Origin: Aliarcobacter sp.
GTDB lineage: Bacteria > Campylobacterota > Campylobacteria > Campylobacterales > Arcobacteraceae
Assembly: GCA_017995775.1 (NCBI GenBank)
Contig: JAGOIF010000012.1
Location: 1-38,514 of the forward strand
DNA: 38,514 nt
Direction of reading: 5' to 3'
A program made the translations under genes and the position numbers. Below are positions 1 through 1,058 of this stretch, piece after piece. Below the pieces are notes generated by a model. That model searched no databases and was not told the DNA's origin. It saw nothing but the letters and a program-made list of their open reading frames with translations. Positions within the stretch are counted from its first letter, which is position 1. Each line of letters begins with the position of its first letter.

Positions 1-458
1 CCAGTTTGCTCATTTCCATCAGAATCAATAGCAACAGTCCATGGAGTAGCTAAACCTTGTTTACCAGCAGTGATTGTAGTATTTGCAATACCTGTATAAC
101 CAAAGTTAGCATGAGATAAAGTTAATGCTGGATTTTCATCACCTTCATTTTGATTATCCATTCCACTTGGCTTTGTTTCATCAGCTTGAGCAAATGATCC
201 AGATGAATTAGCAACTAAAAATCTTGAGTTAAATTTAACATCTTCATTTACTTTTGAAGATAAGTTTAATGCAACTTTATAGTTGTTGTTTGTATCAGAA
301 CCATCAGTAACATCGTTTTTATAGTCATTATATCTGTAAACAACAGAACCTGATGTTTCTACGTTTTTAATTGCATCTTCTAAAGATTGAGCGTTAGCTG
401 TAGTTAAACCAGCAACTGCAACAGCTGCTACTAAACTTAATTTTGCGATTTTTTTCAT
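1..458 (-). CDS. Major outer-membrane porin, N-terminal part (Campylobacter MOMP-like)
   Basis: This is the first 152 residues of a gene that runs off the left edge of the window. The ATG at 458 has a clear ribosome site (AGGAG) a few bases upstream. The protein opens with a classical Sec signal peptide: MKK, a hydrophobic stretch around residues 8-18, then an ANA-Q cleavage site near residue 23. The mature part begins SLEDAIKNVETSGSVVYRYN and continues with alternating polar and aromatic residues (SKVNEDVKFNSRFLV, LSHANFGYTG, TITAGKQG), as expected of outer-membrane beta strands. This resembles the Campylobacter major porin family, which forms a general diffusion pore for small solutes. The family call rests on the signal peptide and strand style; the C-terminal half is not visible. 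The leader and upstream region are unusual and are described separately. Confidence 0.85.
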   Translation of the reverse strand, partial: MKKIAKLSLVAAVAVAGLTTANAQSLEDAIKNVETSGSVVYRYNDYKNDVTDGSDTNNNYKVALNLSSKVNEDVKFNSRFLVANSSGSFAQADETKPSGMDNQNEGDENPALTLSHANFGYTGIANTTITAGKQGLATPWTVAIDSDGNEQT

Positions 459-568
459 TTGTTCTCCTAAAATTTCGAAATCTTTTTCAGTTTACCGGAG
501 CGCGCGAACTTTGGCTAAAACTTGAGGTCTTAAACCTTTTCCGATATACCGTTACAGCCATTCTACAC
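459..568 (-). promoter_or_regulatory. GC-rich structured 5' leader of the porin gene
   Basis: The stretch between the porin start and its likely promoter is far richer in G and C (about half over 491-560) than the flanking DNA, which is about one quarter or less. On the minus strand, TGGCTGTAAC (560-551) can pair with GTTTTAGCCA (521-512) in 9 of 10 positions. Inside that loop AGGT/ACCT forms a small hairpin (537-525). A second helix can form between TATCGGA (546-540) and TCCGGTA (499-493), with one G-U pair. It crosses the first helix, so the fold would be a pseudoknot. A GCGCGC run lies at 506-501. I do not recognise a named RNA family. The pairings were found by eye, without energy calculation or alignment. 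Confidence 0.45.
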
Positions 569-580
569 CACTAAATTTTA
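560..580 (-). promoter_or_regulatory. Candidate -10 elements of the porin promoter
   Basis: Two -10-like hexamers face the porin gene: TAAAAT (580-575) and TAGAAT (565-560). No good -35 is visible, which is normal for sigma-70 promoters in this group. Use of the first would give a leader of about 110 nt that includes all of the pairing elements. Use of the second would start inside the first helix. Start-site mapping would decide between them. Confidence 0.4.
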
Positions 581-596
581 AAGTTTTCTTAAAGTT

Positions 597-667
597 GTTA
601 ATCCAAGGTTAATTAACTGTTAATTTAAGGTTATTTTTACATTATTTCGTATTAATGCTTCGTTAAT
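597..667. promoter_or_regulatory. Array of seven GTTAAT-like hexamers at 11-bp spacing upstream of the porin
   Basis: On the plus strand GTTAAT occurs at 597, 608, 619 and 662, with GTTATT at 630, ATTATT at 641 and ATTAAT at 651. The spacings are 11, 11, 11, 11, 10 and 11 bp, so all copies lie on one face of the helix. The array lies directly upstream of the candidate porin promoters. Head-to-tail half-sites at about 11 bp are known for OmpR/PhoB-type response regulators, so this may be a multi-site operator. The regulator is inferred only, and the AT-rich background makes TTAA common. Confidence 0.45.
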
Positions 668-672
668 GCTAT

Positions 673-695
673 TTTAGGACTTTTTTTGTCCTAAA
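673..695. repeat. 8-bp inverted repeat with a T7 loop between folB and porin
   Basis: TTTAGGAC (673-680) and GTCCTAAA (688-695) are perfect complements around seven T residues (A7 on the minus strand). It lies about 50 bp past the folB stop. Read leftward, the arm is followed by ATAGC rather than a U-tract, so it is a poor intrinsic terminator. It could act as an RNA 3' stem or as a protein site. Confidence 0.4.
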
Positions 696-746: not shown

Positions 747-1058
747 TTAGTTAGAAAGAGTAACTATACAATCTTTTAAGATATCTGGTTTTGAGATTTG
801 AATAGATAGATTTTGTATTTTGTACTTAGTATTTAAAAGATTTTCTAGATGTAAAATAGCATCTTCAAGTAGTAAAAATTCCTCTTTTTTCATAGTTGTT
901 TTTACAAGTTTTGAAACCTCTGCATAGTCTATGAACTTATCTTTTGAAAATTCATATTCAAAAGATAGGTTTATTATAACTTTTTGTTTTTTGATTCTTT
1001 CAAAATCAAGTATTCCTATAATGGCTTTAAAAGTTAGATTTGAAATTTGTATTTTCAT
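747..1058 (-). CDS. folB: Dihydroneopterin aldolase
   Basis: FolB cleaves 7,8-dihydroneopterin to 6-hydroxymethyl-dihydropterin and glycolaldehyde in folate synthesis. At 103 residues it is slightly shorter than the usual 115-125. The family signatures are visible: the early strand followed by GILDFERIKKQ (residues 15-25, with the conserved ER pair), DYAEVSKLV in the middle, the FLLLEDA segment carrying the pterin-binding glutamate, and a C-terminal SKPDIL. The start codon overlaps the plsY stop as ATGA (1058/1055), so the two genes are translationally coupled and share the promoter upstream of plsY. The pairing with a phospholipid gene is probably organisational rather than functional. I am confident of the family from these motifs. 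Confidence 0.88.
   Translation of the reverse strand: MKIQISNLTFKAIIGILDFERIKKQKVIINLSFEYEFSKDKFIDYAEVSKLVKTTMKKEEFLLLEDAILHLENLLNTKYKIQNLSIQISKPDILKDCIVTLSN

Follow-up and report, generated by a model that had tools for sequence, protein, structure and literature searches.

The window considered here, the 38,514-nucleotide contig JAGOIF010000012.1, comes from a genome that its congeners place in the GTDB genus Aliarcobacter, and opens on the minus strand with the gene for an Arcobacter-type major porin (1..458). The contig end truncates this gene to its N-terminal part (152 amino acids; ATG at 458-456; translation starting MKKIAKLSLVAAVAVAGLTTANAQ), and its promoter region, in which short TTAA-centred half-sites follow one another at about one helical turn, is the subject of this study. 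Porin homologues 52-78% identical were found in 29 of 31 congeners and in 74 of 104 genomes of the family, and the same porin occurs in A. cryaerophilus, A. vitoriensis, A. caeni, and A. vandammei. Upstream of the start codon the minus strand presents a ribosome-binding site (AGGAG, 464..468; assigned by sequence and conserved in the alignment), a leader of ~100 nt, and a -10 element TGTAGAAT (560..567) with the hexamer TAGAAT (560-565) immediately preceded by TG; the position and sequence of this element are conserved in relatives (TGTAGAAT/TATAAAAT). The -35 position is occupied by a proximal box, TTTAAG-AAAAC-TTTAA (TTTAAGAAAACTTTAA, 578..593, minus strand), which comprises a first half-site TTTAAG (588..593), recognized by conservation and by its match to the consensus of the Helicobacter pylori regulator HP1043, and a second half-site TTTAAA (577..582), recognized by sequence and in relatives. 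Its TTAA core at 578-581 stands 12 bp from the -10 hexamer, a geometry identical in relatives.

The proximal box is conserved at orthologous porin promoters. Among the aligned porin upstream regions of 28 congeneric genomes, the window genome included, the core TTAAG-AAAA-S-TTTAA is identical in all 28, with ATTAAG replacing TTTAAG in one. In other genera of the Arcobacteraceae, TTAAG-N5-TTT[AT]A was present close upstream of the -10 element in 20 of 23 sampled porin promoters. Genome-wide pattern searches showed the 16-mer TTTAAGAAAASTTTWA to be nearly porin-specific across the family; most Aliarcobacter genomes, including that of the window, hold a single copy, at the porin promoter. The box was not found at paralogous porins (L087, L089, and C102 of the window genome).

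A box of this kind is known from H. pylori HP1043 (HsrA), for which two papers give the consensus ttTAAG-5bp-tTTAAg, substituting for the -35 element, and footprints that protect motifs of the form TTTAAG-N5-TTTAA (PMC5253667, PMC8345958). The porin box matches this consensus as a TTTAAG-N5-TTTAAG-like direct repeat on the coding strand and likewise takes the place of the -35 element ahead of a sigma70 -10. The window genome encodes one orthologue of the corresponding Campylobacter jejuni regulator CosR (C180:27567-28259; L108), and orthologues are present in 29 of 31 congeners. The best PDB matches of L032 and L108 are the CosR structures 8uvx/8uuz (~1e-115), followed by HP1043 itself (2hqr, 3e-84). 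The window genome's orthologue and C. jejuni CosR are identical at 86 of 98 positions of the DNA-binding domain and at 16 of 16 in the recognition helix, such that an orthologous regulator with conserved DNA-contacting parts is encoded. C. jejuni CosR binds TATTAACCAAAATTAAGATAT with a Kd of 4.5 nM and the rearranged AATTAAGATATTATTAACCAA with a Kd of 2.5 nM; its half-sites, TTAAC and TTAAG, are 10 or 11 bp apart, and both DNA complexes have been crystallised (PMC10936212). In the DNA1 crystal the duplexes are stacked end to end and CosR dimers bridge neighbors (PMC10936212), a lattice that, if read as a continuous duplex, would resemble the array at the porin promoter.

This array extends upstream from the proximal box. 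The original prediction, made from the window sequence, had placed seven GTTAAT-like hexamers in one orientation at 597, 608, 619, 630, 641, 651, and 662, and all seven are present at these coordinates: exact at 597, 608, 619, and 662, with one mismatch at 630 and 651 and two at 641 (ATTATT). With the porin encoded on the minus strand, the hexamer becomes ATTAAC when followed in the direction of the gene. In that orientation the distal half-sites are ATTAAC at 597..602 (9 bp core-to-core from the proximal box), 608..613, 619..624, and 662..667, ATTAAT at 651..656, and the degenerate AATAACC at 629..635 and AATAAT at 641..646; the window reads CTTAAATTAACAGTTAATTAAC at 608-629 and AGCATTAACGAAGCATTAAT at 651-670. 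With seven exact or degenerate hexamers and the proximal pair, the number of half-sites spaced head-to-tail by one helical turn exceeds two. The hexamer positions stand; the proposed 11-bp steps with one of 10 do not make a single uniform 11-bp series, as 9- and 10-bp steps occur. Similarly, two TTAAAGTT copies at 578 and 589, which had been thought to carry the period on towards the promoter, are indeed 11 bp apart, but they belong to a different half-site type (TTTAAG-like) and do not continue the distal period, the core step from 589 to 598 being 9 bp. A TTAG at 674, proposed as the next repeat on the far side, was rejected as a further half-site, since it forms part of an arm of a terminator-like hairpin (TTTAGGAC-N7-GTCCTAAA, 673..695, no strand assigned).

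The chain of seven hexamers scores 17, whereas the next best chain elsewhere in the window scores 5. Dinucleotide shuffling, a check proposed with the original prediction, produced no comparably long phased runs: a score of 17 was reached in 0 of 3000 shuffles of the intergenic region 459-746 and in 0 of 200 shuffles of the whole window, the best shuffle scoring 10. The triple TTAAS-N5/6-TTAAS-N5/6-TTAAS has a single occurrence in the 2.5-Mb genome, which is the porin array.

Alignment of porin upstream regions, likewise proposed beforehand, showed the phase to be conserved in close relatives. In 15 such genomes TTAA-like cores fall at -74, -63, -52, -41, -31, -20, 0, and +11 relative to the first proximal core, with one off-register column at -24, and this register is kept although spacers and some half-sites differ. 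The sites at 608..613 (core -20) and 619..624 (core -31) are occupied in 15/15 close relatives, that at 651..656 (core -63) in 12/15, and that at 662..667 (core -74) in 11/15. At 630 and 641, the weak positions of the window copy, relatives hold TTAA-like cores in the same register, namely a core at ~-41 in 10/15 and GTTAATT at ~-52 in 14/15. A core at -9, the site at 597..602, is found in some relatives only, the window genome among them. The best period for the core columns, the off-register one at -24 included, is 10.55 bp; compared with randomly placed columns, p = 0.0006 at a fixed 10.5 bp and p = 0.05 for any period of 8-14 bp, values that describe the register and not independent events because the sequences are related by descent. 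Autocorrelation and a periodogram of column conservation gave no 10-11 bp peak, since conservation declines with distance from the promoter, and the core register positions were used in place of column-conservation periodicity. Outside the genus, shorter arrays occur at porin promoters of genera g19 and g13, and the full array in one genome of genus g16 (L188, G083). There the porin promoter and array are nearly unchanged and the downstream porin has strongly diverged from that of the window, as though the promoter had not shared the history of the coding region.

Other promoters of the window genome share the proximal arrangement. With the mirror-image pattern as the control for genome-wide searches, TTAAS-N5-WTTAA-N10-13-TANAAT had 9 matches versus 3 for its mirror image. 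All 9 lie outside open reading frames (ORFs), and in most the next same-strand gene starts 52-68 bp away; for one match the distance is 167 bp, and another immediately precedes a tRNA-like sequence. By reading of the translations, the genes concerned encode NosL-like, ResB/CcsB-type cytochrome c biogenesis, AroQ, and DksA-type proteins, a lipoprotein, the porin, and a small protein whose gene precedes one for outer-membrane efflux. The CosR-type pattern before the outer-membrane efflux operon (L144, G000:C126) is situated ~400 bp from a divergent gene with a product that looks type II Cas9-like. At further promoters, among them that of the gene divergent from cosR, the -35 position is held by ATTAAC-N5-ATTAAC. 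In relatives, triple TTAAS arrays with 10-11 bp steps are co-oriented with and 59-99 bp upstream of metH, rpmB, and hflK and of genes for a NosL-like protein, a degP-type protease, a major facilitator superfamily (MFS) transporter, and an iron-sulphur protein (L147-L153). The evidence taken from these triples is confined to their strand and their distance from the next gene. Their intergenic location was set aside: each TTAA includes a stop codon, and where both steps are 11 bp, or both 10 bp, a copy falls in each reading frame, so that lying outside ORFs is uninformative. Several of them mix TTAAC and TTAAG within one register, which points to, without proving, one protein that reads both half-sites.

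The upstream region of cosR itself contains TTTAAG-N5-TTTAA on the non-coding strand near the start codon, as described for hp1043. In its leader (L108, G000:C180; L109-L136) a TTAA-rich block, AAATTTAAACTTAACTTAAATTTAAGGA, is conserved and overlaps the ribosome-binding site, and a CTTAAA...CTTTAAA box lies upstream of the -10 element; this block and box suggest that CosR is autoregulated. There is, in addition, a conserved GTTAAT-N5-GTTRAT-like pair upstream of cosR which, read towards the divergent gene, is ATTAAC-N5-ATTAAC before TAAAAT (L109-L136). From its sequence we take the product of that gene to be a periplasmic peptidyl-prolyl isomerase-like protein of the PEB4/SurA type, an outer-membrane protein chaperone; the porin and a porin chaperone may share control.

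Taken together, the element is probably the control region of the sigma70 promoter of the major porin, built for CosR (HsrA/HP1043), an OmpR/PhoB-family regulator specific to the Campylobacterota, and equipped with an extended half-site array, and its layout suggests that CosR turns the porin gene on. A CosR/HsrA-type box takes the -35 position, its core 12 bp from the -10 hexamer, and upstream of it TTAAC half-sites keep to one face of the helix over about seven more turns. The original prediction of an array for OmpR/PhoB-family binding stands as the best-supported reading and can be narrowed to one candidate, CosR, though the 9-bp step at the junction and the existence of two kinds of half-site leave room for two regulators. 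The filament-like cooperative binding predicted along with it is a candidate mechanism for tuning porin output. A CosR dimer on the proximal box would contact RNA polymerase and strongly activate porin transcription, and further dimers, occupying the upstream ATTAAC half-sites at one subunit per ~10.5 bp, would cooperatively raise occupancy of the proximal box, making porin output sensitive to the level or state of CosR. We infer the activating sign and the cooperativity from the position of the box and from the HP1043 and ArcA precedents; filling of the distal half-sites by CosR is the corresponding extrapolation. In its boldest form, which we advance tentatively and consider less than probable, CosR, an orphan regulator that models have long depicted as a dimer bound to a single box of two repeats, would polymerise head-to-tail over ~9 half-sites, with the porin as a direct and cooperatively tuned target.

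Several observations weigh against CosR as reader of the whole element. The distal half-sites are ATTAAC, not TTTAAG, and the step at their junction with the proximal box is 9 bp; distant congeners retain the box and have fewer or more degenerate ATTAAC-like sites. These features mean that the distal and proximal parts could have different readers, and the genome encodes 28 Trans_reg_C proteins, 27 of them in addition to CosR. Conservation of the distal half-sites is only modestly above that of the spacers (0.90 vs 0.80, p = 0.04), and triple TTAAS arrays are genome-wide not more numerous than their mirror image. HP1043, finally, has been modelled as binding head-to-head (PMC8345958), an arrangement with no obvious way of tiling.

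The most substantial of the alternatives, unlikely in our estimation though deserving of attention, is that CosR provides basal activation from the proximal box and that a second OmpR-type regulator, responsive to a signal (RacR-, ArcA- or OmpR-like), binds the distal ATTAAC sites and adjusts porin output to oxygen or osmolarity. The distal half-site, ATTAAC/GTTAAT, resembles the E. coli ArcA repeat, WGTTAATTAW. This resemblance, the difference of the distal half-site from the proximal one, the 9-bp phase slip at the junction, the variable length of the distal part between species where the proximal part is constant, and the abundance of further proteins with the same DNA-binding domain would all accord with two readers, as would the existence of ArcA sites with 2-5 direct repeats at 11 bp (PMC3798270). 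However, C. jejuni CosR recognizes TTAAC in addition to TTAAG (PMC10936212), both half-site types are mixed in a single register at other promoters, and ATTAAC-N5-ATTAAC itself holds the -35 position elsewhere, before the gene divergent from cosR among others.

An explanation requiring no dedicated protein, to which we assign a low probability, would see in the array a periodic A/T-rich signal that replaces the -35 element through DNA bending or as an UP-like element. Such signals are general in epsilonproteobacterial promoters (PMC3656092), the period of the array equals the helical repeat, and an A/T period is present upstream of the -10 element; yet hexamer-specific conservation exceeds what a general signal would require. 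A 16-mer with fixed G and C positions is kept at porin promoters across genera, no other GTTAAT chain in the window approaches the score of the array, the array reaches ~60 bp past the core promoter, and the footprints published for HP1043 show protection of this kind of motif. Fortuitous repetition in AT-rich intergenic DNA, where TTAA is a common word, can be given practically no credence: it is refuted by the shuffles and by a register that is common to 15 genomes with differing spacers and recurs at the L188 porin promoter, in another genus and before a much diverged porin.

With respect to known systems, the core of E. coli ArcA sites is GTTAAT-like, as in the porin array, and E. coli ompF and ompC are controlled by EnvZ-phosphorylated OmpR through three to four dimer sites with a different half-site sequence. 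The latter are tandem OmpR/PhoB-family sites upstream of a major porin (PMC3139631), as proposed here. In ArcA sites, as in the array, direct repeats follow one another head-to-tail every 11 bp and can number more than two at a site, often with cooperative occupancy; the ArcA sites differ in that they comprise two to five repeats, depend on phosphorylation, and mostly repress (PMC3798270). They indicate by analogy that a multi-repeat architecture works in the OmpR/PhoB family. No ArcA orthologue was identified here, orthology among the Trans_reg_C proteins having been resolved for CosR only. The C. jejuni CosR sites at cmeABC, sodB, and ahpC (PMC10936212, PMC3139631) include TTAAC/TTAAG 10-11 bp apart at cmeABC, as in the array, and are read by the identical recognition helix; they differ in spanning 21 bp and in that cmeABC and sodB are repressed, whereas the Aliarcobacter porin site is at an activating -35 position and extended upstream. 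Closest is H. pylori HP1043/HsrA, with its coding-strand TTTAAG-N5-TTTAA repeat at the -35 position, a match on the non-coding strand near its own gene, and tRNA and ribosomal-protein genes prominent among its targets, as among the other likely targets here. Its sites consist of one box, or two at rpoD, and an array of ~9 half-sites or a porin target is not described in the accessible parts of these papers (PMC5253667, PMC8345958). The original prediction knew of no described array of this kind in the group; a related box is already described. Literature searches, with subscription journals mostly outside their reach, found no earlier study of an Arcobacter porin promoter, no long array, and no porin as CosR target; one gene in the HP1043 chromatin immunoprecipitation (ChIP) list, hofC, is an outer-membrane protein gene. 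The proximal box would be of a known kind, a CosR/HsrA promoter, and the long conserved array and the porin target appear new to the literature searched.

Both flanks of the element carry further conserved sequence. In the leader (456-556, minus strand) the blocks AACGG..CGG, GTTCGCGCG(C)TCCGG, ACTGA, and AGGAG are conserved across Arcobacteraceae genera although the coding sequences have diverged; Rfam gave no match to the leader, its folding energy is not unusual, and a MAFFT alignment showed no covarying pairs. At the upstream edge the hairpin separates the array from the 3' end of a folB-like gene (747-1058, minus strand), and relatives retain AGTCCTAAAATAGC at its position.

Essential in both Campylobacter and Helicobacter, CosR/HsrA is being pursued as a narrow-spectrum drug target, while the manner in which its dimer reads DNA is debated between the head-to-head model for HP1043 and the asymmetric dimer of the CosR crystals. 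Some nine conserved half-sites on one helical face would provide a clean substrate for deciding how CosR tiles on DNA, and the element yields a hypothesis, with CosR as sole candidate, of how the Arcobacter group controls its main porin. In the boldest reading, that of head-to-tail polymerisation, outer-membrane permeability in Aliarcobacter would be coupled to CosR, a central housekeeping and redox regulator.
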